Shown here: positions 19,873-49,800 of the stretch, one piece after another | Numbering within the stretch: position 1 is the stretch's first letter | Layout: each line of letters starts with the position of its first letter | DNA from: Marinobacter sp. LA51 | GTDB lineage: Bacteria; Pseudomonadota; Gammaproteobacteria; Pseudomonadales; Oleiphilaceae | Direction of reading: 5' to 3' | Assembly: GCF_030297175.1 (NCBI RefSeq) | Contig: NZ_AP028070.1 | Coordinates: forward strand, 3,472,001-3,536,000 | DNA length: 64,000 nt | Notes under the pieces: generated by a model | Database searches by the model: none | Told to the model about the DNA's origin: nothing | The model's input: the letters and a program-made list of their open reading frames with translations, nothing else | Program-made: the position numbers and the translations under genes

Positions 19873-19982
19873 GCAGGCATCGGGTAAAGCTTCCCAAAAC
19901 CCGCTCAAGCACGTCCATGTGACGCTTGAGCTCCGCCATCCATGGCTCCGCACAGTTTTGGGAAGCTTTACCCGACGCCTGC
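19873..19982 (+). repeat. Structured intergenic repeat, copy 1
   Basis: A 28-bp arm (19873-19900) and its complement (19955-19982, one mismatch) enclose a 54-bp core at 19901-19954. The core contains two inner hairpins: GCTCAAGC...GCTTGAGC and one around GCCATCCATGGC. The core is identical to copy 3 and closely similar to copy 2; the arms are not shared beyond the CCAAAAC/GTTTTGG next to the core. It lies between the convergent uppP and uvrD genes. A three-way-junction fold in RNA, or a cruciform in DNA, is expected. Confidence 0.9.
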
Positions 19983-20004
19983 GCGATCTCCGAATAGCCC
20001 GAAA

Positions 20005-22170
20005 CTAGCAGGCTTCCAAAGGCGCATACGCCAGCACCAACCACTTGGCACCGTCGTCAAAGTTCACCTGCACCCGGGTATGGTGCCCGCTTCCTTCCGA
20101 ATTCATCACCACACCCTCGCCAAACTTCGGGTGCCGCACCCGCTGGCCCAGACTGAATCCGGACTGCTGGGCGGAATCCTGGCTGAACATGCTTTGGTTC
20201 GGGCGTTCCAGCATCGCCGGGCGCGTAACCGTATTGCGCAACCGGACTTCCTGCAGACAATCGCCAGGGATTTCTCGCACGAATCGGGACAGCGCGTTGA
20301 ACTTCTCCTGGCCGTACAAGCGGCGGGATTCCGCGTAAGTGAGCACCAGCTTTTGCATGGCCCGGGTGATACCGACATAGGCCAAGCGGCGCTCTTCTTC
20401 CATGCGTCCCGGCTCTTCCAGCGACATGCCATGGGGAAACAGGCCCTCCTCAACGCCAGCCAGGAACACCATCGGAAATTCCAGGCCCTTGGCGGAGTGC
20501 AGCGTCATCAGCTGAACACTGTCCTCATGGTCTTCGGCCTGGGCCTCACCCGCATCCAGGGCGGCTTGGGCAATAAACTCGGCCATTGGGTCGACACCGT
20601 CTTCTACCTCGTAATCTGACAGCGCGTTGACCAGTTCTTCCAGGTTCTCCACCCGGGCCTGACCTTTCTCGCCCTTCTCGCTGGCGTGGTAATTCTTCAG
20701 GCCGCTATCTTCAATGGTCTGCTTCATCAGGCCATGCAGGCTGGCATCGCCCACCATGCCGGACAGACCTTCAATGATCGCGATGAAAGACTGCAAACCG
20801 GTTTTGGCACGGCCTTTAACCTGCCCGGCTTCGAGTAGGCGTTCCGCTGACTCCCAGAGCGAAATGCTCTGTTCAGTCGCGTATTCTCGCAGCTCGGCCA
20901 GGCTCTTGGCACCAATGCCCCGGGGAGGCAGGTTCACCACCCGCTCAAATGCGGCATCATCACGGCGATACTGCACTAGGCGCAGGTAGGCCAGCGCGTT
21001 ACGGATTTCCTGGCGGTCGTAGAACCGGAGGCCACCGTATACCCGGTACGGAATACCCTGGCGCATCAGCGCTTCTTCCAGCACACGTGACTGGGCGTTG
21101 GAGCGATAGAGAATGGCCGACTCGCTGCGCAGGTTGCCGTCCTGGACCCAGGCCGAGATGCTATCGGCAATGTAGTTAGCTTCATCCTGCTCGTTGAAAG
21201 CGGCATACAGGCTGATGGGCTCGCCGTCCGGGCCGTCGGTCCACAATTCCTTGCCCAGCCGGCCCTGGTTGTTGGCGATCACCGCGTTGGCCGCCTTCAG
21301 GATCATCTGTGTGGATCGGTAATTCTGCTCCAGCCGCACCAAACGGGCATTGGGGAAATCGCGCTGGTACTGCTGGATGTTCTCAACCTTGGCGCCGCGC
21401 CAGCCATAGATGGACTGATCGTCATCGCCAACGACCGTCAGCGGAACCTGTTGGCTAGCCAGCACCTGCAGCCAGGCGTACTGGATGGTGTTGGTGTCCT
21501 GGAACTCGTCCACCAGAATATGCTGGAACCGCTTCTGGTAATGGGTGAGTAATTCCGGCCGGTGCAGCCAGAGTTCGTGGGAGCGCAGCAGCAGTTCCCC
21601 AAAATCCACCAGGCCGCCCTGCTGGCACAGGGTTTCGTACTGGCGATAGATCTTCAGCATCGTTGAGGTGAAGTGATCGCCCGGATTTTCCTGGATGTGA
21701 TCCGCCCGCAAGCCTTCATCTTTCTGGCTGTTGATAAACCATTGCGCCTGCTTGGGCGGCCACTTGCTCTCATCAATCTGGTTTTCCCGCATTACCCGCT
21801 TGACCATCCGCAGCTGGTCGTCACTGTCCAACACCTGGAAGTTCTCCGGCAATCCTGCGTCCTGCCAGTGCGAACGCAGCAATCGGTGAGCAATGCCGTG
21901 GAAGGTGCCAAACCAGAGGCCGCGAGCCGGAATGTCCATCATCTGTTCGATGCGGTAACGCATTTCCTTGGAAGCCTTGTTGGTAAAGGTCACCGCCAGG
22001 ATGCCCGTCGGCGGGACCCGGTCCACCGTCATCAACCACGCAATTCGATGCACCAGCACCCGGGTCTTGCCACTGCCGGCACCGGCCAGCACCAGCAAGT
22101 GATCATTCTGGGCGGTGACGGCCTCGCGCTGGGCATCATTGAGAGGGTCGATTATGTGAGAGACATCCAT
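20005..22170 (-). CDS. uvrD: DNA helicase II UvrD
   Basis: Superfamily 1A 3'-5' helicase of nucleotide excision and mismatch repair. The 721 residues align over the whole length with E. coli UvrD (720). Walker A is LAGAGSGKTRVLVHRIAWL at residue ~29. Other motifs: TFTNKASKEM, ILVDEFQDTNTIQYAW, VGDDDQSIYGWRGAKVENIQ, LEQNYRST, LHSAKGLEFPMVF, RRLAYVGITRAMQKL. The C-terminal Tudor-like domain is SLGQRVRHPKFGEGVVMN. A candidate LexA site lies just upstream, in agreement with SOS control of uvrD in E. coli. Confidence 0.98.
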   Translation of the reverse strand: MDVSHIIDPLNDAQREAVTAQNDHLLVLAGAGSGKTRVLVHRIAWLMTVDRVPPTGILAVTFTNKASKEMRYRIEQMMDIPARGLWFGTFHGIAHRLLRSHWQDAGLPENFQVLDSDDQLRMVKRVMRENQIDESKWPPKQAQWFINSQKDEGLRADHIQENPGDHFTSTMLKIYRQYETLCQQGGLVDFGELLLRSHELWLHRPELLTHYQKRFQHILVDEFQDTNTIQYAWLQVLASQQVPLTVVGDDDQSIYGWRGAKVENIQQYQRDFPNARLVRLEQNYRSTQMILKAANAVIANNQGRLGKELWTDGPDGEPISLYAAFNEQDEANYIADSISAWVQDGNLRSESAILYRSNAQSRVLEEALMRQGIPYRVYGGLRFYDRQEIRNALAYLRLVQYRRDDAAFERVVNLPPRGIGAKSLAELREYATEQSISLWESAERLLEAGQVKGRAKTGLQSFIAIIEGLSGMVGDASLHGLMKQTIEDSGLKNYHASEKGEKGQARVENLEELVNALSDYEVEDGVDPMAEFIAQAALDAGEAQAEDHEDSVQLMTLHSAKGLEFPMVFLAGVEEGLFPHGMSLEEPGRMEEERRLAYVGITRAMQKLVLTYAESRRLYGQEKFNALSRFVREIPGDCLQEVRLRNTVTRPAMLERPNQSMFSQDSAQQSGFSLGQRVRHPKFGEGVVMNSEGSGHHTRVQVNFDDGAKWLVLAYAPLEAC

Positions 22171-22186
22171 AGGAAAACGTTCGCTA

Positions 22187-22202
22187 CTGGTTAAATAAAC
22201 AG
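22187..22202 (-). promoter_or_regulatory. Candidate LexA box in the uvrD promoter
   Basis: On the minus strand CTGTTTATTTAACCAG fits the gammaproteobacterial LexA site CTGT-N8-ACAG with one mismatch. It sits 16 bp upstream of the uvrD start. A -10-like TATACT (22210-22215) lies just in front of it, so a bound repressor would cover the transcription start. Binding is inferred. Confidence 0.6.
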
Positions 22203-22273
22203 GAGTGGAAGTATAACAGGAGAAAAAAGGGATTTCCGCGGGCCTGGGTTGGCCCTCTTAGTTCCGGGGAATC

Positions 22274-22381
22274 GCACAAGAGCGGGGCGCCTTTCAGGAC
22301 ACGCTACAAGCACATCCATGTGCGCTTGGGTGGGGCCATCCATGGCCCCGCACAGTCCTGAAAGGCGCCCCGCCCTCGTGC
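22274..22381 (+). repeat. Structured intergenic repeat, copy 2
   Basis: The left arm (22274-22300) pairs with the right arm (22355-22381), including 19 perfect pairs nearest the core (GCGGGGCGCCTTTCAGGAC). They enclose a 54-bp core at 22301-22354 that keeps the CCATCCATGG and CCGCACA blocks of copies 1 and 3. The arm sequence differs from the other copies, yet pairing is kept. It sits between gabD and uvrD, both leftward, so it is downstream of gabD and upstream of the uvrD promoter. The rest of 22171-22408 is the uvrD leader and a short spacer. Confidence 0.88.
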
Positions 22382-22408
22382 TGTTCTACTTCGGAGGCAG
22401 CTCTTTAA

Positions 22409-23860
22409 TTAAAAACCGCGCGGTACCGTCTGCGCTTCGACAAACTCAAACAGACCTTCCAGACCACCTTCGCGACCAGTGCCTGAGGCCTTCATACCGC
22501 CAAATGGCGCTTCCGGCGTAGGCCCGGTTCCGGTATTCCAGCCGCAGTGGCCAAAACGCAGGCCGGCAGCCACGCGCTGGGCGCGATCGGCGTCACCGGT
22601 GAACACGTAAGAGGCCAGACCGAACTCGGTGTCGTTACCGGCCTCAATAACTTCCTCTTCCGTGCGGAACAGTGCCATCGGCACCAGCGGCCCAAAGGTT
22701 TCCTCGCGGTAACAGCACATATCCCGGGTGACGTCGGTAATGACCGTCGGCGGGAAGAACAGGCCATCACCCAGATCGCCCGGCTGCTTGCCGGCCACCA
22801 GGCTGGCGCCCTGCTCGAGCGCGTCTTCCAGGTGCCGCTTCACTTTGTCGAAACCGGCCTTGTTGATCAGCGGGCCAAGATCTACATCACCGTTGATGCC
22901 ATCACCCACGGTCATCTTGTTAACGCGCTCGGCGAGTTTTTCACCGAAGGCGTCAGCCACCTTTTCATGCACAAAGATACGGTTAGCGCAGACACAGGTC
23001 TGGCCACCACCGCGGAACTTGTTGGCAATCAGGTTATCGGCGGCGGCATCCAGGTCAGCGTCGTCGAAGACGATGAACGGCGCGTTACCGCCCAGTTCCA
23101 GCGCAAGTTTCTTGACCTGCTCGGCGGTGTCGACGATCAGTTTCCGGCCAACTTCGGTGGAACCGGTGAAGCTCAACATCGGCACATCCGGACTCTCACA
23201 CAGCACCTTGCCGATCACGCTGGCCTTGCCCATCACCAGGTTGACCATGCCATCAGGCATGTCGGTGTGCTGGTCCATCAAGGAGAACAGGGCAATCATA
23301 GTCAGCGGGGTCTCGCTGGCCGGCTTGATCACCGACGGGCAACCGGCCGCCAGTGCGGCTGACAGTTTCTTCGCGATCATGCCGATCGGGAAGTTCCACG
23401 GAGTAATCAGTCCGGTCACACCCACTGGGCGGTAGTGAACCGTCCAGGTGCAGTCTTTCGGCTTTTCCGGAATGGTGTGGGCGTCCAGCGCCTGAATGTG
23501 CTTGGAGCAGTAATCAAAGAATCCCGCTGCGTAATCCACTTCACCCTGGGCTTCGTGCAACGGCTTGCCGTGTTCCATGCACAGAATCCGGCCGACCTCT
23601 TCCTTGTTCGCCTTCAGCGCATCCCGGATGTCTTCCAGCCACTTGCGGCGGGTTTCGATGGAGTAGGGGCTGGTCAGGCGCAAAGCCGACTTGCCGGCAG
23701 CAACGGCATCTTCCACCTCGGACTCGGACATGGAGGCAACTTTTGCGATCACATCGCCCGTCGCCGGGTTGTAAACATCAAAGGTGTTGCCCTGAGCATT
23801 ATCTGTCCAGCGACCGCCGATATAGCCATTGAGCTTTTCCAGCAGTGGTGACTCGATCAT
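22409..23860 (-). CDS. gabD: NAD(P)-dependent succinate-semialdehyde dehydrogenase (GabD type)
   Basis: Aldehyde dehydrogenase that oxidises succinate semialdehyde (or glutarate semialdehyde) to the acid. From the ATG at 23860, with GAGGAG 6 bp upstream, it has 483 residues (E. coli GabD 482). The cofactor region is VTGLITPWNFPIGMIAKKLS, with FTGSTEVGRKL downstream. The catalytic glutamate is in LALELGGNAPFIVF and the catalytic cysteine in FRGGGQTCVCANRIFV. The C-terminal pattern is APFGGMKASGTGREGG. No GABA transaminase gene is next to it, so its role may be in general amine or nicotinate catabolism. An upstream frame to 23887 was not used. Confidence 0.92.
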   Translation of the reverse strand: MIESPLLEKLNGYIGGRWTDNAQGNTFDVYNPATGDVIAKVASMSESEVEDAVAAGKSALRLTSPYSIETRRKWLEDIRDALKANKEEVGRILCMEHGKPLHEAQGEVDYAAGFFDYCSKHIQALDAHTIPEKPKDCTWTVHYRPVGVTGLITPWNFPIGMIAKKLSAALAAGCPSVIKPASETPLTMIALFSLMDQHTDMPDGMVNLVMGKASVIGKVLCESPDVPMLSFTGSTEVGRKLIVDTAEQVKKLALELGGNAPFIVFDDADLDAAADNLIANKFRGGGQTCVCANRIFVHEKVADAFGEKLAERVNKMTVGDGINGDVDLGPLINKAGFDKVKRHLEDALEQGASLVAGKQPGDLGDGLFFPPTVITDVTRDMCCYREETFGPLVPMALFRTEEEVIEAGNDTEFGLASYVFTGDADRAQRVAAGLRFGHCGWNTGTGPTPEAPFGGMKASGTGREGGLEGLFEFVEAQTVPRGF

Positions 23861-24032
23861 CTTGGCTCCTCTCCTGTCAGTAGCCATATCCCCTGCGGGA
23901 CACAGTTGCGTAGGTTCAATATGTCTTCCATAGTGGATGCTGAATCACTGGCTGTAAAGTCGATGGCCGGGCTTTTGATCGCGCCCTGACGCACCCATGC
24001 TCAGGGGCTTGTAGAACCAAGGAGATCGGATA

Positions 24033-25046
24033 ATGAAAGCGTTTTTCCATCCCGCTCAGGATCAGCATATTCCGCAGACCTACTTTACTCGCGGGCAGAT
24101 GCGTCAGCCTCAGGAAGTGCCCGATCGCACCGGCCAGATGCTGGAAGGCCTGAAAGAGATGGGGATTCCGGTTCTGCAGCCGGCCGATCAGGGTGCTGGC
24201 CCGATCTCCAAGGTGCACGACCTCGGCTACCTGCGCTTTCTGGAATCGGCACACCGGCGCTGGATGAAGATGGATGACTGGGGAGAGGAAGTGATCTCCA
24301 ACATCTTTGTGCGGTCACCGAACCACCTGACCGGCATTTTGGCCGAAGCCGCCCGCTACCAGGCCGACGGCAGCTGCCCGATTGGCGCCAACACCTGGCA
24401 CGCCGCCTACTGGTCCGCGCAAACCGCACTCGGCGCCGCTGACGCCCTGATTGCCGGAGAGCGCACCGCCTACGCGGTATGTCGCCCGCCGGGACACCAC
24501 GCCCGTAAGGACGCCGCCGGCGGCTTCTGCTATCTGAACAATGCCGCCATTGCCGCTGAGCACCTGAAGCCCCGGTTCCCGCGCATCGCCATCCTCGATA
24601 CGGACATGCACCACGGCCAGGGTATCCAGGAGATTTTCTATGATCGCAGTGACGTGCTGTACATCTCGATCCACGGCGATCCGACCAATTTCTACCCGGT
24701 GGTGACCGGCTTTGAAAACGAACGGGGTGAAGGCGACGGCTTCGGTTACAACATCAACATGCCCATGCCTCACGGCGCTTCGGAAGACGATTTCTTCGAC
24801 AAACTGGACGAGTCACTGGCGGCGCTCAAGCTGTACCAGCCCGACGTGCTGGTGCTCGCTCTGGGCTTCGATATCTACCAGAACGACCCGCAAGCGAAAG
24901 TTTCGGTTACGTCAGAAGGCTTTTGCCGGCTCAGCACCCACATCCGCCAGCTGGGATTACCAACGCTGGTGGTGCAGGAAGGCGGCTATGACCTGGAAAC
25001 GCTGAACGAAAACGTCCAGCAGTTCTTCAAGGGCCTGGCCGGCTAA
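24033..25046 (+). CDS. Histone deacetylase-like amidohydrolase (acetylpolyamine amidohydrolase type)
   Basis: Zinc-dependent deacetylase of the arginase/HDAC fold, 337 residues. The active site is seen in VCRPPGHHARKDAAGGFCYL (tandem His) and AILDTDMHHGQGIQEIFY (the Asp-x-His zinc ligands). The third ligand is likely in LALGFDIYQNDP. Length and the N-terminal FHPAQDQHIPQTYFTRG fit the acetylpolyamine amidohydrolase AphA group better than the acetoin-utilisation AcuC group. The likely reaction is removal of acetyl groups from acetylated polyamines. AAGGAG lies 10 bp upstream of the ATG. It is divergent from gabD (172 bp between) and convergent with thiI. Confidence 0.88.
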   Translation: MKAFFHPAQDQHIPQTYFTRGQMRQPQEVPDRTGQMLEGLKEMGIPVLQPADQGAGPISKVHDLGYLRFLESAHRRWMKMDDWGEEVISNIFVRSPNHLTGILAEAARYQADGSCPIGANTWHAAYWSAQTALGAADALIAGERTAYAVCRPPGHHARKDAAGGFCYLNNAAIAAEHLKPRFPRIAILDTDMHHGQGIQEIFYDRSDVLYISIHGDPTNFYPVVTGFENERGEGDGFGYNINMPMPHGASEDDFFDKLDESLAALKLYQPDVLVLALGFDIYQNDPQAKVSVTSEGFCRLSTHIRQLGLPTLVVQEGGYDLETLNENVQQFFKGLAG

Positions 25047-25096
25047 CCGTACCAGGCTGAGGGAGGGAGCTCAGCTTCAAGTGCTGAGTTAAGACC

Positions 25097-26551
25097 TCAG
25101 GAGGCGGGCGCGTACACTTTGATGTTGGCGTGCCCTTCAGCCTTCAGATGGCCGGCGTGCATCCGGCTCATGGCTCCGCGATCGCAGTACAACAGGTACT
25201 GGCGGTCGCCGGGCAATTCCGCAATCTTCTGATTCAGTTCGTAAAACGGAATCTGCATGACCTCGTTATTGGTCAGCTTCAGCGGTGACTGCTCGCCCTC
25301 GAATGGGTGACGGACGTCGATGATCACATCCTCCACGCCCGGCGTTTCCACCAGCTCGACATCTTCTGGCGTGGTGGTGGTATCCAGCAGGCGGCTGATG
25401 GCCGTTTCTTCACGGGCCTCGACCGCACTGGCCAGAACCGCCGCGTCCATCTCTTCCTCATCTGCTTCGACTTTGTGCAACTTGGCGCGAGTCGCCGGCT
25501 TCTGGGAGATGACCCCACAGTACTCTGGCATGTTGCGAGCGAATGACTCGGTACCAATCTCGCGGGCAATGTTGATGATGGCCTCCTTGTCCATGGATAC
25601 TAACGGGCGCAGCACCACCTCATCACTGGCACGATCCACCACGTTGAGGTTACTCAGGGTCTGACTCGACACCTGGGCCACCGCATCCCCGGTCACCAGG
25701 CCGATGGCGTTGTTCTTTTTCGCAATCTCAGCGGCCGCCTTCAGCATCTGGCGCTTCAGCACGACACCCCAATGGCGGTGATTGACCGAACGCATGATTT
25801 CCGCAATCACGCCATCAAAGGGCACCGAAATAAACTTGGCACTGTGGGACGCGCCATACTGCTCCCACAGGTAGTGCACCACCTGGCGTACACCCACCTC
25901 GTGGGCAGTACCGCCGAGATTGAAGAACAGAAAGTGACTGCGAAGGCCTCGACGCATCATCAGGTAGGCGGCTACCGAGGAGTCGTAACCGCCGGAAATC
26001 AACGTCATCACAGTTTCAACGCTGCCCAGGGGATAGCCGCCGAGCCCACGGTGTTTCCGGTGGGCGATGTGAAAGTGGTCATCCTGCACCTCGATCCGCA
26101 CTTCCACGTCGGGCGATTTCAGGTTCACACCTGCGGCCTCGGAGGCCTGCATCAGGGCCGAGCCGACAATTTGCTCCAATTCATTAGAGCGGAATTTGTG
26201 CTCACCGTGCCGACGAACCCGAACCCCAAAAGTCTGCCCTTTCAACCGTTCAGCAAAGGCCTCTACCGCCTTTTCGGCGATGTCATCGAGATCCACAAAC
26301 GGGAACACGCCGACTTCCTGGATGGTAGAGATACCAGGGATGCGCAGCACTGCGTCCAATACCAACCCGGACAACCCGCGATCATCGGGAACCTCTACCG
26401 TTACACGATCCCAAGTACCCTGGACAACAATGGTGCTATCCAACTGAACCAGTAGCTTTCGGATGTTCTGCCGCAGGTGCCGCATCTGCTGTCGGCGGAC
26501 CGGCTTGCTCTTGATGGCGACTTCGGGGGCGGGACGAATAAGTAATTTCAT
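25097..26551 (-). CDS. thiI: tRNA 4-thiouridine sulfurtransferase ThiI
   Basis: Introduces sulfur at U8 of tRNA and supplies sulfur for thiazole synthesis. It has 484 residues (E. coli 482). An N-terminal ferredoxin-like part and a THUMP domain occupy about 1-165. The PP-loop SGGYDSSVAAYLMMRRGLRS is near residue 183. The C-terminal rhodanese domain (from about 400) carries the catalytic cysteine in YLLYCDRGAMSRMHAGHL. The partner cysteine of the E. coli Cys344-Cys456 disulfide is present in NMPEYCGVISQKP. The ATG at 26551 has no clear ribosome site. It is divergent from ppnN. Confidence 0.96.
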   Translation of the reverse strand: MKLLIRPAPEVAIKSKPVRRQQMRHLRQNIRKLLVQLDSTIVVQGTWDRVTVEVPDDRGLSGLVLDAVLRIPGISTIQEVGVFPFVDLDDIAEKAVEAFAERLKGQTFGVRVRRHGEHKFRSNELEQIVGSALMQASEAAGVNLKSPDVEVRIEVQDDHFHIAHRKHRGLGGYPLGSVETVMTLISGGYDSSVAAYLMMRRGLRSHFLFFNLGGTAHEVGVRQVVHYLWEQYGASHSAKFISVPFDGVIAEIMRSVNHRHWGVVLKRQMLKAAAEIAKKNNAIGLVTGDAVAQVSSQTLSNLNVVDRASDEVVLRPLVSMDKEAIINIAREIGTESFARNMPEYCGVISQKPATRAKLHKVEADEEEMDAAVLASAVEAREETAISRLLDTTTTPEDVELVETPGVEDVIIDVRHPFEGEQSPLKLTNNEVMQIPFYELNQKIAELPGDRQYLLYCDRGAMSRMHAGHLKAEGHANIKVYAPAS

Positions 26552-26699
26552 AATCAGAATATTGTCGAGTGGCGTATAAGGCGGAAAGCACTTAGTCTAC
26601 CTTTTAATGACCATGCCTCAAAATCAGGCATAGCCGAGACACCGGCCCGATAGGCATCCATCCCCGCCCGGCCGGAAACATTCAGGAGTTGTTTCGTTC

Positions 26700-28082
26700 A
26701 TGCAAGAACCCACCATCAATGCTCTGGTATCACCAGAAGGCAGCCTTGAAATCCTCTCCAACCATGAGGTGAATCGCCTCAAGGACCGAAGCGAGGGCGG
26801 CCTGTACCGATTGTTCCGCCAATGTGCCCTGGCGGTCCTCAACACCGGCGTAGAGACCGACGACTGTAAGGCCCTGATGGAAGCCCACGCTGACTTTGAC
26901 GTGCACTTGGTCCCGCAACCGCGGGGATTGAAACTGGAACTGGTTAACGCGCCAGCCCACGCCTTTGTCGACGGAGAAATGCTCCGGGCCATCCGAGAGC
27001 ATCTGTTCTCGGTACTGAGGGACATCATCTATTCCCACTCCATCCCCCAGTCCGCCAGTGGTTTCCGCCGCGACGATCCCGAGGACCTGACCAACCTGGT
27101 CTTCCACGTTCTGCGTAATGCCCGGGTTCTGGAATCCGGACGCCAGCCAGACCTGGTCGTGTGCTGGGGTGGCCACTCCATCAGCCACGAGGAGTACCAG
27201 TACAGCAAGGAAGTGGGCCATCAACTCGGCCTGCGGGCACTGAGCATCATTACCGGCTGCGGCCCCGGCGCCATGAAAGGCCCGATGAAGGGCGCCACCA
27301 TTGCCCACGCCAAGCAGCGGGTGAAAAACGGGCGCTACATCGGCATCACCGAACCCGGCATCATCGGTGCCGAGGCGCCGAACCCGATCGTAAACGAACT
27401 GGTGATCATGCCCGACATCGAGAAACGGCTTGAAGCCTTTATTCGCTGCGGCCACGGGGTGATCGTGTTCCCAGGTGGCGTTGGTACTGCCGAAGAGATT
27501 CTGTACCTGCTCGGCATTCTGCTGCACCCGGACAATGCCGACCTGCCGTTCCCGGTGGTCTTTACCGGCAAGCAGGAAAATGCGGAATACTTCGAAATGA
27601 TCGACAAGTTCATTCGGAACGCCCTGGGCGACGAAGCGGCCAAGAAGTACGAAATCATCATTGATGATCCGGTCCGGGTAGCTCAGACCATGAAAAAAGG
27701 CATGAAGGATGTGGAAACCTTCCGGCGGGCCATGCAGGACGCGTATTACTTCAACTGGATGCTGAAAATCGACCCGGTATTCCAGCTACCGTTCCACCCC
27801 AATCACGAGAACATGCGGAGTCTGGAATTGCATCGCGACCAGCCCGTGCACTTGATTGCGGCCAATCTGCGCAAGGCCTTCAGCGGTATTGTGGCTGGCA
27901 ACGTCAAAGAGGACGGGATTCGCCAAGTGCAGGCCAAGGGGCCCTTCGAAATTTCCGGCGACCCGACCCTGATCAAACCCCTGGAAGCGATGTTGGATCA
28001 GTTTGTGGCGCAGAACCGGATGAAACTACCCGGCTCCTCGGCTTATGGGCCTAGCTATCGCATCGTCAGTGGGGCGGCCTAG
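26700..28082 (+). CDS. ppnN: Pyrimidine/purine nucleotide 5'-monophosphate nucleosidase PpnN (YgdH)
   Basis: Cleaves nucleoside 5'-monophosphates to base and ribose 5-phosphate; in E. coli it is activated by (p)ppGpp. It has 460 residues (E. coli 454). The central LOG/lysine-decarboxylase-like domain has the family site ITGCGPGAMKGPMKGATIAH and the PGGVGTAEEILYLLGIL motif. Flanking PpnN-specific parts match too: GLYRLFRQCALAVLNTG at the front, and NLRKAFSGIVAGNVKEDGIR and NRMKLPGSSAYGPSY at the end. AGGAG is 13 bp upstream of the ATG. It is a single gene, convergent with the cytochrome c gene. Confidence 0.95.
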   Translation: MQEPTINALVSPEGSLEILSNHEVNRLKDRSEGGLYRLFRQCALAVLNTGVETDDCKALMEAHADFDVHLVPQPRGLKLELVNAPAHAFVDGEMLRAIREHLFSVLRDIIYSHSIPQSASGFRRDDPEDLTNLVFHVLRNARVLESGRQPDLVVCWGGHSISHEEYQYSKEVGHQLGLRALSIITGCGPGAMKGPMKGATIAHAKQRVKNGRYIGITEPGIIGAEAPNPIVNELVIMPDIEKRLEAFIRCGHGVIVFPGGVGTAEEILYLLGILLHPDNADLPFPVVFTGKQENAEYFEMIDKFIRNALGDEAAKKYEIIIDDPVRVAQTMKKGMKDVETFRRAMQDAYYFNWMLKIDPVFQLPFHPNHENMRSLELHRDQPVHLIAANLRKAFSGIVAGNVKEDGIRQVQAKGPFEISGDPTLIKPLEAMLDQFVAQNRMKLPGSSAYGPSYRIVSGAA

Positions 28083-28123
28083 GCCGCCACACTGACCTTT
28101 CAACTGCCTTCGGAGGCGCGGCC

Positions 28124-28459
28124 TTACTTGCCGCCATCTGCCGGCAGGCTGGCGAAATAGGCAGCCAGGTTAGCAATATCGGTGTCACTTAGGGCAGCCG
28201 CCTGGCCCTGCATAATGGCCGCCTGGCCACCGGTGCGCTGTTTGTTCTTATAGGCTTTGATGGCAGAAACCAGGTATTGCTCATTCTGACCCGCCAAGTT
28301 CGGGTATGTCGGGATCTGGGCAATGCCATTCTGGCCATGGCAGGCAGCACATACGGCGGCCTTGGCCTTACCTGCAGCAGCGTCAGCCGCAGTGGCGAAG
28401 CCCGGAATGGCAGCACTGAGCGCAAAAATTCCCGCCACGGCGTAGTGTTTCAGTTCCAT
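28124..28459 (-). CDS. Small class I periplasmic cytochrome c
   Basis: Soluble electron carrier of 111 residues. A signal peptide is visible (about 1-24, [18 protein letters not shown]). The haem site CAACH is in [19 protein letters not shown] at about residue 37. The axial methionine is probably the one in [20 protein letters not shown]. This arrangement is like cytochrome c553/c4 half-domain proteins. The neighbours give no hint of a dedicated partner. A moderate AGAGGGT ribosome site lies 9 bp before the ATG at 28459. Confidence 0.9.
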
Positions 28460-28621
28460 TGTCTTTACCCTCTCTTCATCGTTTTTGGTATTTGCCCACC
28501 GGTAGTGGATACTGGTTTTAAAACCTGCTGTGTTCTTATAACACAGAGCACGGCCCAGCCAAACGCGTTAGAACAATAGCTTTTGCGCCCAGATGATTCT
28601 CGAACACCGGAGACTCCCTCA

Positions 28622-29725
28622 ATGTCCATAGCAGTTCAGGAACTTGAATGCCTGGAAGGCCGAATTGGCCTGCTGACACTGAATGCCCCCGCCTCACTCA
28701 ATTCGCTCACAGAGGCCATGGTCAATGACCTCCAGTGCGCTCTGGACGGCTGGGCGGAGGACGACCAGATCTGCCTGGTGGTGCTTCAGGGCGAAGGGGA
28801 GCGGGCATTTTGCGCCGGTGGCAATATCCGCAATCTGTACAGCGCTCTCCAAGGCGCTGGCGAACCCGATGCACCGGCACGCTTTTTCGCCAATGAGTAC
28901 CGACTAATCGACAGCCTGCACCGGTTTCCGAAACCTGTGGTGGGCGTGGCCCACGGCGCGGTCATGGGTGGTGGTCTCGGACTGTTGTCCGCCTGCCGCT
29001 ACCGGCTGGCGACGCCGGACGTGACCATGGCGATGCCGGAAATCTCGATTGGACTGTTCCCCGACGTCGGCGCCAGCTGGTTTCTGAACCGCCTGCCGGG
29101 CCGGATCGGTCTGTTCATGGGCCTGACCGGGGCCCGATTGAACATCACCGACAGCATTCGAATTGGCCTTGCCGATATGGTGTTGCTGCCGGAAGACCGG
29201 GATCTCATGATTGGCACCTTGCAGGACCAACGCTGGACCGGCCAGGCAGCCGCAGATGACAACCGGCTGTTCCGGCTATTAAGCCAGATGCATGCTCCGG
29301 ACTACCGCAGCCTTCAGCGCAGCAATCTGGAGCAGCACGAACAGCACATCGCCCGGCTGAGTGCAGGTGATGAACTGCCGGAGATTGTCGACCAACTGCT
29401 GTCAGCGGAAATTGACAGCGAATGGTGGAATGCCTGCATGAGCAACCTGCGGGGAGGCTGCCCGGTTACGGCCTGGCTGGTTTGGAGCCAACTCCAGAAA
29501 GCCCAGCAGATGTCATTCAAGGATGTATTGCGCATGGAATTGGCGATGGCGATGGAATGCACTCGGCGCCCGGATCTGCCGGAAGGCATCCGGGCGCGAT
29601 TAGTGGACAAGGATCAACGACCAACCTGGTCGTACAACTCAGTTAGCGACGTTCCCGCAGAGGTAGTGGAGGCACACTTCCAGCCGGAATGGGACGACCA
29701 GACCGACCCCATGCAGCTCGGCTGA
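28622..29725 (+). CDS. 3-hydroxyisobutyryl-CoA hydrolase / enoyl-CoA hydratase family protein
   Basis: Crotonase-fold enzyme of 367 residues. The length, the oxyanion-hole motifs RAFCAGGNIRNLYSAL and HGAVMGGGLGLLSACRYRLA, and the block MPEISIGLFPDVGASWFLNR are those of 3-hydroxyisobutyryl-CoA hydrolase, a valine-degradation enzyme. The long C-terminal part (from about 200) with QMSFKDVLRMELAMAMECTR also fits. No other valine-pathway genes are adjacent, so an ordinary enoyl-CoA hydratase role cannot be excluded. The ATG at 28622 has GGAG 8-9 bp upstream; the earlier in-frame start at 28583 is unlikely. Confidence 0.85.
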   Translation: MSIAVQELECLEGRIGLLTLNAPASLNSLTEAMVNDLQCALDGWAEDDQICLVVLQGEGERAFCAGGNIRNLYSALQGAGEPDAPARFFANEYRLIDSLHRFPKPVVGVAHGAVMGGGLGLLSACRYRLATPDVTMAMPEISIGLFPDVGASWFLNRLPGRIGLFMGLTGARLNITDSIRIGLADMVLLPEDRDLMIGTLQDQRWTGQAAADDNRLFRLLSQMHAPDYRSLQRSNLEQHEQHIARLSAGDELPEIVDQLLSAEIDSEWWNACMSNLRGGCPVTAWLVWSQLQKAQQMSFKDVLRMELAMAMECTRRPDLPEGIRARLVDKDQRPTWSYNSVSDVPAEVVEAHFQPEWDDQTDPMQLG

Positions 29726-29728
29726 GGC

Positions 29729-30424
29729 TCAGTGCCTGGCGCCCGCCTGGACCAGCAGCATATCGAGATCCTGGCTGTTGTTGGCCCGGGCCACATCCAG
29801 CGCAGTGCGGCCTTCCGGCGACCGGTAATTCACATCCGCGCCTGCGGCCAACAACATTTCTGCGGTCAGCAAATCGCCACTGGCAACAATTTTCATCAGC
29901 AACGACTCACCGCCCTGACTGACATTAACGTTCGCCCCCGCCGCCAGCAGTACCTTCACCACGGACAAATGGCCCTGCTCAGCGGCACGCATGACCGGAG
30001 TATAGCCATCGGCGTTGCTGGCATTGACCTGGGCTCCGGCCGATAACAGCAGTTGTACCAGACGCCGACTCCCCTGCGCCGACGCCACCATCAACGGCGT
30101 CTGGGCACCCGCCGCGGCCAGATCCGGCGCTGCCCCCTCAGACAGCAGGTACCAGGCAATCCGATCCTGTTTGGCTGCAACCGCAGCCATCAGTGGCGAG
30201 CCGTTTTCGGTCAGCGTATTGAGTGATTCACCCGCTTCAGTCAGTGCCACCACCCGATCCAGATTTCCGGAGGCGGTCGCCGCCATCAACGGCGTGGCGG
30301 CAATGGTGGAGGTTTCATGGGTCAGGTTGGTCGGTTCCATGGGGGTGGCGCAGCCGGACAGCCAAGCCAGGATCACAACACAGGACAACATCAGACAGCG
30401 AGAGTAGCCGGTTCCCTTGGCCAT
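29729..30424 (-). CDS. Ankyrin-repeat lipoprotein
   Basis: A 231-residue protein starting with a lipoprotein signal: hydrophobic stretch CLMLSCVVILAWLSGC, with LSGC as lipobox and Cys at about residue 25. The rest is about five ankyrin repeats, for example TPLMVASAQGSRRLVQLLLS and TPVMRAAEQGHLSVVKVLLA. It should therefore be anchored to a membrane, facing the periplasm, and bind another protein. The partner is unknown. The ATG at 30424 is used; a TTG five codons upstream is possible. It is convergent with the hydrolase gene, with 3 bp between the two stops. Confidence 0.85.
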   Translation of the reverse strand: MAKGTGYSRCLMLSCVVILAWLSGCATPMEPTNLTHETSTIAATPLMAATASGNLDRVVALTEAGESLNTLTENGSPLMAAVAAKQDRIAWYLLSEGAAPDLAAAGAQTPLMVASAQGSRRLVQLLLSAGAQVNASNADGYTPVMRAAEQGHLSVVKVLLAAGANVNVSQGGESLLMKIVASGDLLTAEMLLAAGADVNYRSPEGRTALDVARANNSQDLDMLLVQAGARH

Positions 30425-30495
30425 AAAAAACGGTCTCAATCGGTTTGGAGTGAGCCTATTCTGGGCAGCAGCGCAGCAGAATTAAATCGAGCGGG

Positions 30496-32649
30496 TCACA
30501 ACTCCGGGCCGTTTTGAAGAAGTTGACGAACCAACGCCCGCAGTCGATCTTCTCCATCGCGCTGCCCCAGACACAGGCCTTGCCCCTGCAGTGTTTGCCA
30601 GCTCTGCTGTTGCAGAACTGCGGCAACCCAAAGCAACAACTCGTCTTGAGCTTGCAACCAGGAGAGCACGCCCGGCACGGCCCAGGTCTTACGCAGCACG
30701 GGCAACGAGAGCAGAAAGCCACGATGACCGTGGGCAAAACTGTGCAGGTCCCGCCGATCATCGTCACTGAGGCGACTGGCGGCCGGCAATTGAGCACTCA
30801 GGGCTGCCGCCAGCCGGGCATTCAGCGCCGGCCAGGCCAACGGCAACAGGGTTGGCCAGTGTTCGGCCAGGCGTTGCTGCAGGCGTGAAACCAGCTCTTG
30901 CCCACCGGCACTGCACCCGGCCAGCATCTGTAATGGGTACTCTCCACTGCTAGCCTCCTGGTTCAGGCCCAGGCGCACGGGGACCAAATCGCAGGCACGC
31001 CAGAACTGCAGCAATTCCTCACTGCCACCAAAGCTGGTGCCCACCGTATCCAGGTTTTCCTGCACGGCAGCCTGCCTGGCCGCGGCCACCAATCGGCAGC
31101 CAACACCCAGCCGGCGGGCATGATCAGCCACGGCAATCCGGGTAATTCGCAGACATTGCTGACTGGCTGCTTCCGGGAACCCGCTGTGACTGGCCAGCGA
31201 TTGCGGCAACAGGTGACCACGAAGTCGTCGCTGACCGAGAGTTATCTGTTCCGCCAGTTCAGGGCTGATGCCACCCTCAATAACACCCCAGAGAATACCC
31301 ACGGTGGTGTCGCCCACCCGGGCGCGCCAACTGCGCACAGTTGTCGCATCCAGCCATTGCCGGAGATCCGCGGGCGTGGTGCGGTAGTGCGCGTCCACCA
31401 ACAACCCGAACGCCTCCGACAACTGCTGATCGTCCAACTGCCGGGGCTCAAAGGGTTCGATAAGGACATCGGCTGCGTCCACGGTCTCGGGCGCCAGCTC
31501 AGGACTGTCAGCCGCCAGCAGGAACAGGCGGGAGATTAAGGGCTCCAGGGCATCGGTGGCGGACCAGCGAATGGGCGCACTGAGAGTCAGCGCTTGCCAG
31601 TGCGGTGTTTCCCGATCCAGAACCTGCCGAAACCGAATAGCAAAACCACGGCCTGCACCCTCATAGCCATGCACGGTGGACGAAAAAGCCACCCGCGGCC
31701 AACCCAACAGAATCTGCTTCAATAGCGCCGCCGGCAGGGCTGCCGCCTCATCCACCAGCACCACCTCGGCTTCCGGCTTCTCCGCCAGAAGATCCCGAAC
31801 AGTCAGGAACCGCAGGCTGCCACCCGCACGGGTTTCCAGCGCGGATTCTGAGGCGGTGAGGATATCGTCACCAAGACTGTGCTGGGCGTGACGAAACAGC
31901 GTTGCCACATTATCCCGGGAAGGCGCAGTCACCAGAATCTGGCGCCGGCCCTGGCGCAGCAATTCTGCCGCGGCCATCCCGAGGGCTGCGGATTTACCAC
32001 GGCCCCGGTCCGCCGTGACAACCACCGGCCGGCGACGCCGACCCAGACCGAACCGCACCAGCCGATCAATCAGGTCACGCTGATCATCGGTCGTCTGCAC
32101 CGAAAATGGCTGATCTGGTTCCACGAGCACGGGCAGATCAACTGACGCCGACTGGCCGGATTTGACCCGAATTACCTCAGAGTCAGCCGCCAGCAAATCC
32201 GCCATTCGCGCGGCAAACGGGTGCTCGGGAAGGTCATCCAGACCGGTTCGGGCGTAATCTGGATCGGGGAAATTCGACCACTGATCCAACGGCGGCATCA
32301 GCCAGAACAGCAGGCCACCGGCCCGCAGCGTTCCGGATAGAGCAGCAAAGGCATCGGGCGGATTGCCGTGCCAGCCATCCCAGACCACCACCGAAGTCTC
32401 ACGGCCCAGCCACTGCCGAATTTGCTTGGGTGCGATGGGCGTTAACGCCTCATCAGGCCGGTCCGCGTCCGGCCCCACCCAGACACCAGCCGCTGTTGCC
32501 AGCGCTGGCAACAGCGTCGCCAGCCAGCTCAGGGCATGAGCGCGCTCACCCTCAATCAACACAAGACGGCGCTCGCCACGCAGCCTCAGCCCACGCTGGA
32601 ATAACTGCCAGGCGTTGAGTTCTTCAGCCGTGAGCACACCCGGAGTCAT
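30496..32649 (-). CDS. tmcA: tRNA(Met) cytidine acetyltransferase TmcA
   Basis: Makes N4-acetylcytidine at the wobble position of elongator tRNA-Met, using acetyl-CoA and ATP/GTP. It has 717 residues (E. coli 671). The order of domains is right: an N-terminal DUF1726 part (about 1-170), the helicase-like ATPase with P-loop VVTADRGRGKSAALGMAAAE and Walker B EVVLVDEAAALPAALLKQIL, then a GNAT domain (ITRIAVADHARRLGVGCRLV). A C-terminal tRNA-binding tail ends it. The ATG at 32649 shares its A with the stop codon of the DUF2237 gene, so the two are translationally coupled. Confidence 0.95.
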   Translation of the reverse strand: MTPGVLTAEELNAWQLFQRGLRLRGERRLVLIEGERAHALSWLATLLPALATAAGVWVGPDADRPDEALTPIAPKQIRQWLGRETSVVVWDGWHGNPPDAFAALSGTLRAGGLLFWLMPPLDQWSNFPDPDYARTGLDDLPEHPFAARMADLLAADSEVIRVKSGQSASVDLPVLVEPDQPFSVQTTDDQRDLIDRLVRFGLGRRRRPVVVTADRGRGKSAALGMAAAELLRQGRRQILVTAPSRDNVATLFRHAQHSLGDDILTASESALETRAGGSLRFLTVRDLLAEKPEAEVVLVDEAAALPAALLKQILLGWPRVAFSSTVHGYEGAGRGFAIRFRQVLDRETPHWQALTLSAPIRWSATDALEPLISRLFLLAADSPELAPETVDAADVLIEPFEPRQLDDQQLSEAFGLLVDAHYRTTPADLRQWLDATTVRSWRARVGDTTVGILWGVIEGGISPELAEQITLGQRRLRGHLLPQSLASHSGFPEAASQQCLRITRIAVADHARRLGVGCRLVAAARQAAVQENLDTVGTSFGGSEELLQFWRACDLVPVRLGLNQEASSGEYPLQMLAGCSAGGQELVSRLQQRLAEHWPTLLPLAWPALNARLAAALSAQLPAASRLSDDDRRDLHSFAHGHRGFLLSLPVLRKTWAVPGVLSWLQAQDELLLWVAAVLQQQSWQTLQGQGLCLGQRDGEDRLRALVRQLLQNGPEL

Positions 32650-33026
32650 TAGCTGAGATCCACCGAATGACGTTTCAGGTCGTTCAGTTCGCACATTTCC
32701 AGAGTGGCCTGATGAGTCGCCCGCAACCGCACGCGCGGGGCAGCTCCGGCCTCAAAAGCTTCCTGCCAGCGCGCCGCGCACAGGCACCAGCTGTCACCTT
32801 GCCGTAGGCCCGGAAATCCAAATTCCGGCCGGGGTGTGCTCAGATCGTTGCCCTTGGCTTTTGAGAATTCCAGAAACTCATCGGTCACCACCACGCACAC
32901 GGTGTGAAAGCCCAGGTCGTCCGGCCCGGTGTTGCAGCAGCCGTCCCGGTAGAACCCTGTTTGCGGATCAGTGCCGCAGGTTTCCAGATTTTCGCCCAGT
33001 ACGTTGACGGATTCGGATATTTGCAT
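32649..33026 (-). CDS. DUF2237 family protein
   Basis: A 125-residue protein of unknown function. The DUF2237 signature is clear: NLETCGTDPQTGFYRDGCC, GNDLSTPRPEFGFPGLRQGD, WCLCAARWQEAFEAG and ATHQATLEMCELNDLKRHS. It has six conserved cysteines and no signal peptide. The ATG at 33026 has GAGG 9 bp upstream. An open frame back to 33110 reads through repeat copy 3 and was not used. It is coupled to tmcA. Homologues are often about 120 residues, so it appears complete. Confidence 0.88.
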   Translation of the reverse strand: MQISESVNVLGENLETCGTDPQTGFYRDGCCNTGPDDLGFHTVCVVVTDEFLEFSKAKGNDLSTPRPEFGFPGLRQGDSWCLCAARWQEAFEAGAAPRVRLRATHQATLEMCELNDLKRHSVDLS

Positions 33027-33065
33027 GGATTTGTCCTCTATCTCCAGAAGTGAGCAGGCTTTTGG

Positions 33066-33151
33066 TTTGGCTTTCCAAAACTGTGCGGAGCCATGGATGG
33101 CGGAGCTCAAGCGTCACATGGACGTGCTTGAGCGGGTTTTGGAAAGCCAAA
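33066..33151 (-). repeat. Structured intergenic repeat, copy 3 (inverted)
   Basis: The arms 33066-33081 and 33136-33151 (TTTGGCTTTCCAAAAC and its complement) are perfectly paired. They flank a 54-bp core at 33082-33135 that is the exact reverse complement of the copy 1 core. Unlike the others, this copy sits between two divergent genes (DUF2237 and the helicase at 33262), 40 bp upstream of the former's start codon. A role only as terminator is therefore unlikely. The rest of 33027-33261 holds no clear promoter hexamers. Confidence 0.9.
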
Positions 33152-33261
33152 TCAAAGGGCTGCGACAGGTCCCGGAGTTGTAGTTAAATGACTTTGAATA
33201 GGTTTTTTCAATTATGCGGGACGGGTACCCGCTCTACCAGTTGGCCAGTACAATACGCCCT

Positions 33262-46831: not shown

Positions 46832-49800
46832 CTAATACAAGCTGCGGGGCAGTCGGTACCCTGCAAGTAGTTGTTGTGTGAACGGGTTGGTATTACTGGC
46901 GGCATGAAGTCGATATTTCATTTCGCCATCGTCTACCTGGAAGCGTACGTCCACAGCACTATTGCTGACACCGGTGATATCTGCCTGATCGAGCAGGCGA
47001 AACAGTGCCCAGGGGCCGTTTTCCGAAATACTCCTGGGTGATCGGTTCACCTGGATCGGCACCAGGGTTATCCGGCTCTCCACGCTATCACGAAGGGTAT
47101 TTGGCCAGACCAGGGGAACGCTCTGGCGGGGACCATGGCTGAATTCCACCAGTTGACCGTCCAGGTTGACCACACTGCGACGCTTGTTCGCCGACAGGTT
47201 CAAAGGTTCAAGGGCGAACTCAACGTCCAGAGAGCCGCCCCGGGTGAAGTAGGCCCTGCGGATCCGATCAGCCTTCTCCAGCGAGTTGAGAACATCACGG
47301 CGCACCAAACTGGCGCGACGGGCGTCGCCCACCTGTTCGGGATGTTCATCCAGGAACAGCTTGAGATTGTCCCGGTAGAAGGTATCCAGCACCCCTTCAG
47401 GTCCAAAGAAACGCTCAAAATCCTGCAGGGCAACGTCGCGACCGGAGCTTGCACTGAATGGATAATGGCGGGCGAGGTTCTGCTGGAACGGCTGGTACAC
47501 CTCCCGGTACCACTCCCGCTCAAGCTGCGCCACAGCCTGGTCCAACAGAACCCGCCAGCTCTCATTTGCCAACTTGCCGAGCATGCGATTCAGTGGCTCA
47601 GGCTGGTTGTCGGCCATACGTTGAAGAGTAAAGATGGGGTCTGCCCCCTGCAGTCCCAGGCGGGCACGTGCAGCGGCAAGAGCGGCTTTGCCCTGGTCTG
47701 GCGATTCCTGAATATTGCGCATGTATTCATGGAGATCGCCAACCACGAGCATGATCTGGTCCAGCCCGGTTGGCTCTTCACCAATTTTGCGAGTGAGTTC
47801 ATTCAGGTCGGCAAACTGACGGTCAATTTCCACCAGCATCTGGAAATGAGGGGATTGTTCCAACAGGGTTCTCGCCGCGGCCTCGTCGCCCTCTTTCGCG
47901 GGCAACAGACGGGTGTTCTGCCGGACTTGCCCAAGCAGCTGAGCTAATGGTTTATGCCCGCTGGTCAGGCTTTCCAAAATCCGCACACCGTGATTCAGAT
48001 CTTCCAAACGGTGCAGGTCCAGACGGCTGAGCGCCTGCCGCCAGGCGCCGACATAGTGCTCAGCGTAGAGGGTTTGCAGACCTTTCTGGAGCTCCGCCTC
48101 GTCCGCCTTGCTGAAATCGACATTATCACGGCGCCCCAGCACCCAGGCATCGATCAAGGCCAACTCTGTCACTGAACCGGATTCCCTCAGGAACCATTGC
48201 TCCAAACCGTTTCTGGTTAGCAGGGCCGGAATCATCAGCGGGTCGCGCTGGTCAGATTCGGAGTGGTTCGTTGGCTCGCCATACTCATCCACCTGTCTGA
48301 AGACCGCACTGAAAGCGGGGCCGGAGGTCCGAGCCAGATCGACCGGCGCGCGGTATTCCCGCTCGGCTTTCTCCTGCAGGTCGTGATAAACCCGGGTGGG
48401 CGTAGCAACTTGCCCCAACTCATGCTGAGCCCATTGCACGCTGCTACGAAAAGGCGCCAGTGCCATCGTGGCTGTAGCATCACCGGCCCGGGACAGAGCG
48501 CCCAGATCGGTATGCTCCATGGCGTAGCTGAGGTGCTCCAGCAGGCTTCGCTGCTGGTCTTTCTGGCCGGGGAAGCTGCGCTGCCAGTACTCACGCATAT
48601 AACGAATGACCAGATCGCTGCGTCTGCCGCTGGCGTCGTAGAGCATTCGGAGCACCCGTAAGTGATCAAGGCGCTCAGCGTGATCGTCGGATACCTGCCC
48701 CATTTCACCCATGACACCAAACATCAACGCCGGCAGGTATTGGTAGGCAAGCATATCAAGATAGGCGGTCTCCACCGCAGGTCCAACCCGGTGCCCCTGG
48801 TAGAGGCCCATATCGGTCACCACCGGCCACTCCTCATGATGGTCCCCGAAAGCAAGTGTGGCTTTGCGCAGTTCGCTCAAGGGTTCCAGCAGATTGCGGC
48901 CAGTGGCGTCCGGCTCAAATCCGACCGGTTGCCAGTTGTCGAGGAAGCTCCGTACCCGGCTTTCTACCTGATCAGCAGCACCGGCGTTTTTCTGAAAGTA
49001 GTGCTGCCAGCCCGCTGTCATCCCTACCCCAGCGCTGATGGCCAAGACAGCTGCCGCGGCAACTGCGTGCTGACGTCGACGAATGACTCGGTGATTATCA
49101 CCGGCAAGACCCGCTTCCCGGTAGATGATGTTCGGGAACAGGGAGTGGGCGAACAAGCTGGCACTCTGTCCCGTGCGTTGTGCCGGTTGAATCGGCGTAG
49201 CCATGCCATAGTTGGTTGCCGCCGCCGACACGAAGGCATCTTCCGGGACACCTTCCTGAACCACAGACGTGAAGTAGGTACCCCGAACCAGCGCCGGTGT
49301 TGAAAACGCATCGGAGGACAGCAGCTCGGCCAGAAACCCTTCCAGGGTCGGCTTCAAACCAGCGAGTTGGCGGGTAAAGGAATACACCGCAGCCTTGTCT
49401 TCAGCATCGTGAAGATCCGCGAGCACATCGGGCAAGCGCTGAGAAAGCCGGTTGCTCAGTGCTGCAAAACGTTCGGCGAATTCGCTCAGCCAGTCGTCGT
49501 TGTCCAGCCGGTCGCCCAGCGCAAAGGTAAAGCCGAGTGCCTGTTCCTTTTCTTCCTTGCTCAGCCCCTTCACCAGGGGGCCAAAACCATAAAGCAGGTC
49601 CATCTTGGTGAAGCAGACATAAACCGGCAGCCGGGACCCTAGCTGCTCCATCAATTCTCGCAATCGCGTTCGCAGCAAGATGGCCTGCGCCTTGCGCCTG
49701 GATTCACTGGTGACGCTGAGACTCGCCACATCCACGGTCAAAACCACCCCATTCAGCGGTCTTTGCGGGCGGTTGCGTTCTAACCAGTAGATAAAATGCT

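Follow-up and report, generated by a model that had tools for sequence, protein, structure and literature searches.

A family of strand-specific three-way-junction repeats in Marinobacter, candidate docking sites for CsrA/RsmA

The window analyzed here is a stretch of 64,000 nucleotides (positions 3472001-3536000) from the genome of Marinobacter sp. LA51, a single contig of 3.77 Mb. It carries three copies of a structured intergenic repeat, in which a core lies between two self-complementary arms. The first copy sits between two open reading frames (ORFs) which, from their translations alone, we take to be uppP (ending at 19848, plus strand) and uvrD (ending at 20005, minus strand). On one strand, called here the GGA strand, each copy is predicted to fold as a three-way junction, closed by a stem (P1) of about 28 bp and bearing two hairpins (P2 and P3) with GGA in their loops. 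A covariance model of the family found exactly three copies in the 64 kb at E < 1e-20. Their parts are as follows, with the loop motif CANGGAYG taken from PMC7705225.

19873..19982, minus (GGA) strand: copy 1, whole element, between the ORF ending at 19848 (+) and the ORF ending at 20005 (-)
19873..19900, minus strand: copy 1, P1 arm on the uppP side, 28 nt, pairs with 19955-19982
19955..19982, minus strand: copy 1, P1 arm on the uvrD side
19901..19954, minus strand: copy 1, 54-nt core, the two hairpins of the three-way junction
19937..19944, minus strand: copy 1, P2 hairpin loop CATGGATG (CANGGAYG)
19912..19919, minus strand: copy 1, P3 hairpin loop CATGGACG (CANGGAYG)
22273..22382, minus (GGA) strand: copy 2, whole element, between ORFs 22409-23887 (-) and 20005-22170 (-)
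22273..22300, minus strand: copy 2, P1 arm on the uvrD side
22355..22382, minus strand: copy 2, P1 partner arm
22301..22354, minus strand: copy 2, 54-nt core of a different subfamily, with a longer P2 stem
22337..22344, minus strand: copy 2, P2 loop CATGGATG
22313..22320, minus strand: copy 2, P3 loop CATGGATG
33054..33163, plus (GGA) strand: copy 3, whole element, between divergent ORFs with starts read at about 33027 (-) and 33259 (+)
33054..33081, plus strand: copy 3, P1 5' arm
33136..33163, plus strand: copy 3, P1 3' arm
33082..33135, plus strand: copy 3, 54-nt core, same as the core of copy 1
33092..33099, plus strand: copy 3, P2 loop CATGGATG
33117..33124, plus strand: copy 3, P3 loop CATGGACG

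The original prediction, made from the letters of the window alone, had placed three copies of a 54-bp core at these sites, and the model recovered all three. The core is 54 nt in each of them, and copies 1 and 3 do have identical cores. The arms had been given as 16-28 bp and as pairing with themselves. They do pair, but all are 28 nt long, and the stem of copy 3 is longer than had been stated (33054-33081 with 33136-33163, with one mismatch and two wobbles). AAAAC/GTTTT in two copies and AGGAC/GTCCT in the third proved to be a real compensatory difference. Of the three, only copy 2 was among the 60 sequences behind the covariance model; copies 1 and 3 were outside the training set. RNA folding of copies 1, 2 and 3 gave z-scores of -9.0, -11.1 and -8.4, respectively, and 0 of 200 dinucleotide shuffles of each folded as well. 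The sole other model match in the window up to E 1 was weak (47461-47566, minus strand, 16.6 bits, E 0.094) and probably arose by chance.

The element is not confined to the window. BLAST with copy 1 in its own genome returned 36 rows, two of which were the arms of copy 1 matching each other, leaving 34 places. A 62-nt core query matched 35 of 37 genomes of the genus, its own included, and 0 of 21 genomes of other families. Loci of Marinobacter yielded 220 non-redundant copies. When the covariance model, built from 60 Marinobacter copies, was applied to the order (presumably Pseudomonadales, as named from the listed genera), matches at E <= 1e-4 were present in 89 of 244 genomes and 48 of 112 genera. 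Among 15 chosen positive genomes the number of copies ranged from 1 to at least 126; no more than 150 candidates were scored per genome, and the high counts are therefore minimum values. Among the matches listed, records that bear a name and contain the core include many from Marinobacter and others from Parahaliea, Pseudohaliea, Haliea, Microbulbifer and Alloalcanivorax. There was no family match on plasmids and phages, and none on viral contigs for two exact patterns. A few long core variants (G000:C1 near 2797171 and 3646872; locus L127 of genome G014, at site 2) have the P3 region replaced by about 90 nt with several extra hairpins and read like an enlarged form of the element.

Self-complementary arms (local score >=15) were present in 216 of the 220 genus copies. 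The original prediction had named cores without paired arms as evidence that would speak against it, and only 4 were found. The stem measured 26-29 bp in 183 of the 216 paired copies. The core inside the arms was 52-59 nt and split into subfamilies. Arms have in common their length, a GGG block and, close to the core, GCTTTCC. For the structural alignment, 137 copies with distinct cores were put in random order and the first 60 were used. In the three-way-junction structure 97.7% of alignment cells were paired, and 32 of 40 pairs had changed on both sides. The covariation score was 0.695, compared with 0.163 for shuffled alignments (0 of 500 reached 0.695) and at most 0.157 for slid ones. The original claim that selection or some mechanism acts on the paired structure is borne out. 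By eye, the stems in the genus of genome G264 (loci L406-L435) keep three blocks, AAGGC at the end, GCCGGGT in the middle and TTTTC beside the core; they are spaced by roughly one turn of the helix, and the sequence between them varies.

A stem in double-stranded DNA is symmetric, and a G-T pair on one strand is A-C on the other, so wobbles tell which strand is folded. In 6053 arm pairs we counted 164 wobbles on the GGA strand and 19 on the other, beside 63 other mismatches. Counted by site, 50 of 63 sites favored the GGA strand, 2 the other and 11 neither (169:27 in the fixed 27-pair frame of this count). Among the named loci the numbers were 120 and 11 in 3602 cells, in an alignment fitted to the model that includes a few opposite-strand matches. 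Outside the genus they were 50 and 3 (50 copies). Copies that stand as neighbouring doublets were each asymmetric on their own GGA strand, at 32:4 and 35:4. The GGA strand is the strand whose fold is maintained, because the asymmetry appears in the genus, in other genera and in both doublet members. Folding energy was also lower on this strand in 196 of 216 copies. The asymmetry fits RNA. One model in the original prediction was a three-way-junction RNA or cruciform element. The RNA form agrees with this predicted, covarying fold, and a cruciform with the same role on either strand does not, as the wobbles pick one strand.

Both hairpin loops on the GGA strand read CANGGAYG. This is the RsmA consensus in Pseudomonas aeruginosa, and the Escherichia coli CsrA consensus is given as RUACARGGAUGU in the same source (PMC7705225). 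Since the regular expression for the Marinobacter set demands part of the motif, its counts of intact loops are non-independent evidence. The covariance model includes the loops without requiring their sequence. Among 60 model-detected loci outside the genus, 46 had two CANGGA in the core, 13 had one and 1 had none; half of these loci (30) came from one genome, and the use of a fixed offset accounts for a few of the misses. Two CANGGA occurred in 8 of 900 background windows. The base 3' of GGA was T or C in 101 of 105 cases at loci outside the genus. The structure, its strand and its motif are shown by these sequence comparisons.

Of 373 copies with both motifs, 353 had their GGAs 21-22 nt apart. 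A CsrA dimer is described as spanning sites 10-63 nt apart, with an optimum above 18 nt (PMC7652899). The spacing of the element falls inside this bridging range.

At gathering thresholds, Rfam reported nothing in the window. In a relaxed scan, the minus strand of copy 1 matched TwoAYGGAY (RF01731, clan CL00106) over its full length at 35.0 bits, where the cut-off is 43; unrelated microRNA hairpin models also matched the long stem. Of 18 loci from other genera, L278 (47.7) and L257 (45.1) scored above 43, two scored 42.0 and 33.2, and 14 were unlisted. The TwoAYGGAY listing is reportedly the work of Weinberg and colleagues. TwoAYGGAY is described as probably RNA, from human gut, gamma-Proteobacteria and Clostridiales (PMC2864571), and as a predicted CsrA binder (PMC4333381). 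Like our element, it has a long closing stem and two GGA-loop hairpins in the same order on the GGA strand. However, the core of the element is shorter than the model, and its loops read A-N-GGA-Y, where N is T or C, as in AYGGAY, in many copies and G or A in others. The element is also high-copy, dispersed, flipping and doublet-forming, which TwoAYGGAY is not said to be in the literature excerpts covered. Because the window copy misses the cut-off, we name the family TwoAYGGAY-like without assigning it to RF01731. The original prediction had not recognized the repeat as a named REP, REPIN, ERIC or attC class; TwoAYGGAY is the named class that comes near.

Sponge small RNAs such as RsmY, RsmZ and CsrB carry at least two sites per RNA. 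Their loops are of the same CANGGAYG type, whereas the element has two loops only, gave no promoter or terminator signal in simple scoring, and is dispersed in tens to more than 100 copies. Integron attC sites are also read as a structure from one strand, with a variable stem sequence. The element shares both properties; unlike attC, it stands between resident genes with no cassettes seen, and its loops differ (attC models were compared only via the Rfam scan). The literature covered described no TwoAYGGAY-like or CsrA-site repeats at high copy. The copy number, the strand-specific covariation, the core flips at orthologous sites and the back-to-back doublets are new here.

We propose that the repeats are TwoAYGGAY-like dispersed structured RNA elements that dock or titrate CsrA/RsmA, a reading to which we give an even chance. 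The GGA strand would be transcribed and would fold into the three-way junction, with P1 free in sequence but paired and with two CANGGAYG-loop hairpins. One CsrA/RsmA dimer could then dock on both loops. The dispersed copies would together act as docking or titration sites and might thereby have a regulatory effect. We infer CsrA binding and function at roughly one chance in two.

The score of copy 1 below the TwoAYGGAY cut-off is the first of several points that weigh against this reading. The near-perfect 28-bp stem exceeds what CsrA binding should need. The association with csrA is weak: csrA (CsrA, PF02599) was detected in 228 of 244 genomes, namely in 87 of 89 with the element and 141 of 155 without it. 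This co-occurrence is compatible with a CsrA link and hardly evidence for it. Two element-bearing genomes had no csrA detected, G222, which is 88% complete, and G264, which has 57 copies. We considered G264 as a natural csrA knock-out and rejected it; the csrA neighbourhood there reads N, and the absence is no evidence.

The gene context adds further points of this kind. We classified 218 copies as lying between convergent genes (46), between divergent genes (33), between tandem genes in GGA-sense (62) or antisense (42) orientation, inside a predicted gene (15), far from genes (13) or at an edge (7). No clear orientation bias to tandem genes was found: 62 sense and 42 antisense copies gave a p of 0.06, with copies not independent, and the numbers by ortholog cluster were 23 and 23. 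Antisense copies pair about as well as sense copies (Watson-Crick fractions 0.934 and 0.940), and all contexts fall within 0.93-0.97. Promoters and terminators were looked for by simple sigma-70 consensus scoring and T-run counts. A sigma-70-like signal reached the threshold 5' of the GGA strand in 74 of 218 copies, compared with 83 when shuffled, and no excess was seen either there or in doublet spacers. A T-run followed the stem in 2 of 218 copies on the GGA strand and 13 of 218 on the other, which is not the pattern of an intrinsic terminator. A promoter and terminator of its own, as for a Csr/Rsm sponge small RNA gene, was not found. We therefore rejected models of the element as a terminator, a promoter or an mRNA untranslated region. 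Since pairing is alike in all contexts, with no promoter excess and no T-run, the constraint has no obvious dependence on transcription of the neighbour genes. It is here that the RNA reading is weakest. The selected form could also be single-stranded DNA, which we regard as less likely.

The best rival is that the element is REPIN-like miniature mobile DNA. A dedicated transposase would act on the hairpins as single-stranded DNA and recognize the loops, whose likeness to CsrA sites would be coincidental. We consider this possible but doubtful. The high copy number speaks for it, as do an orientation largely free of genes and differences in presence or absence between species. So does the arrangement of doublets. 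All 46 unique neighbouring pairs within 600 bp had diverging GGA strands, with centres 113-284 bp apart; none were tandem or converging. These pairs came from a Marinobacter-type sequence pattern with 445 matches in overlapping loci, and the pairs were de-duplicated. By the model, 39 of 40 doublets diverged (25 of 25 in named loci, 8 of 8 in the rows listed for the 15 chosen genomes and 6 of 7 in G264), and this set overlaps in part with that of the pattern. The seventh pair in G264 converges, and we dropped the statement that doublets always have one arrangement. The outer ends carry motifs. A TAGCCYG-like sequence about 20 nt outside the stem occurred in 37 of 92 doublet outer flanks, 6 of 92 inner flanks and 39 of 287 single copies. 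A looser TAGCCTG-N-TTNGGGG-like motif was present at 51 of 96 doublet outer ends compared with 8 of 96 shuffled ones. This arrangement looks like that of a REPIN, and the element shares with REPIN/BIME (the RAYT-associated REP doublets) its high copy number, intergenic position, inverted doublets and motif-bearing outer ends.

The differences from REPINs are as follows. The stem sequence of the element varies by site, and paralogues with identical cores do not share their outer arms. Each doublet member is asymmetric on its own GGA strand, yet a single DNA strand of a doublet would have the GGA fold in one member and the TCC fold in the other. Single copies are the majority: 287 of 379 by the pattern (92 in doublets), while by the model 50 of 126 copies in named loci and 14 of 57 in G264 were in pairs. 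Pairing is equally good in single copies and in doublet members (Watson-Crick fraction 0.951 for each), in contrast to REPIN singlets as described in PMC3116915. The pattern in which doublets dominate and singlets decay was thus not found. The lack of matches on plasmids, phages and viral contigs also argues against mobile DNA. Separately, a TTTGG-like motif lies outside the stem mostly on one side, in the 5' flank of the TCC strand, 38-39 nt from the junction.

The docking reading and dispersal may also be combined. In a self-spreading RNA family, back-to-back CsrA-docking pairs would disperse in a REPIN-like manner, and a mobile decoy population, which differs between genomes in its detected copies, would set CsrA/RsmA availability. 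We offer this only tentatively.

According to a second rival, the element is a structured RNA or processing hairpin selected for its long duplex, as an RNase III site or for mRNA end protection, and CsrA is irrelevant. In its favor, P1 is at least 25 bp in most of the paired copies. Convergent gaps are also enriched: they hold 46 of 183 classified copies but make up 31 of 276 element-free gaps at the same loci (tandem 172, divergent 73). The 33 copies between divergent genes and the 42 antisense copies in tandem gaps do not fit, nor does the lack of a terminator T-run, nor do the CANGGAYG loops kept in most order-wide matches. We judge this account improbable.

Two further explanations concern how the arms and cores evolve. 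Among the 218 copies there were 39 clusters of orthologous sites. In many clusters the arms are recognisably homologous and have changed with compensation, and in some the arms could not be aligned by eye. At 81-85% flank identity (103 pairs), for example, compensated changes numbered 6.9 per pair and one-sided changes 1.6. The variation in orthologous arms is mostly compensated, where uncompensated variation had been named as a sign against the prediction. Several of the closest orthologues have one-sided changes only, as expected of stepwise compensation. Species differ in core orientation and core subfamily at shared sites, as at site 3 in 18 genomes. Among 503 orthologous or neighbouring pairs, 307 had the same and 196 the opposite orientation; these include partners of a doublet within a single locus, which account for at least 16 of the flips, as well as related pairs that entered the count repeatedly.

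In 151 pairs with identical cores and non-homologous flanks, the outer arms had a mean identity of 0.39 and a maximum of 0.71 (random pairs, 0.38), and the inner 10 nt had 0.80. In 64 of 26565 pairs the outer arms were >=0.76 alike without homologous flanks, for which a weak arm consensus may be the source. Core identity was 0.944 within and 0.936 between genomes (89 copies, one subfamily). Because these values are nearly equal, we read the core as constrained in sequence and the stem as constrained mainly to pair. Identical cores with unrelated arms then follow and need no movement. Concerted evolution as their main cause was rejected, as the difference within and between genomes is too small. 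One core position is lineage-fixed in some genomes (all 11 copies in G000 and all 5 in G059 have C; all 37 in G007, G010, G017 and G035 have A) and mixed in G001, G002 and G019. Some homogenisation or spread of cores is possible.

The identical-core pairs would fit a mobile core that inserts precisely into the loops of pre-existing hairpins, the other model of the original prediction. This is very unlikely. The features common to the arms and the compensated drift of orthologous arms at many sites contradict it. Core-less hairpins at orthologous sites (L121, L100, L091) keep core remnants or look like deletions, and other sites without the element look like plain intergenic DNA or deletion derivatives. 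The proposed check for an empty hairpin came out negative: there was no clean empty hairpin or young insertion at the three window sites (at most 29 other genomes per site) or at the loci fetched then, where many rows classed as lacking the element were alignment artefacts and were left out of the counts. We also considered that arms were captured from one flank, by inverted duplication at insertion, as suggested by the one-armed alleles L091 and L202. L091 also lacks flank found in other species, and we read it as a deletion; L202 is read likewise, by analogy only. Finally, correction by template switching (of a quasi-palindrome) could keep the arms alike with no selected function, and the excess of compensated over one-sided changes agrees with it, but it gives no reason for a one-strand wobble preference of 164:19, and several closest orthologues have one-sided changes only, which leaves it hardly credible.

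Some other features of these intergenic regions were seen. L223 (G007) and L244 (G017) have nearly identical outer flanks and identical cores. They differ wholly in their arms, their orientation and the nearest 20-40 nt or so of flank, as if a cassette had been replaced together with its flanks. A second palindromic repeat family, TAGGTCGGATTAGCGAAGCGTAATCCGAC, occurs as inverted pairs beside or between elements (flanks and doublet spacers of L221, L246, L225 and L402). A third hairpin repeat, with the sequence GGGGTCAGATGAAAGCTTTCATCTGACCCC or a close variant, lies in the same regions at L087 and L091 (site 1 in G059 and G002, followed by a T-run) and in the spacer of L215.

The wobble-asymmetry test is a cheap general way to find the selected strand of a palindromic repeat. 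Detected copy number of this element differs more than a hundredfold between genera. If CsrA/RsmA is bound, many Pseudomonadales genomes would have dozens of sites at which a global regulator docks and which the Rfam cut-off missed in the window. In that case, models of Csr regulation that count two or three sponge RNAs would miss part of the system.

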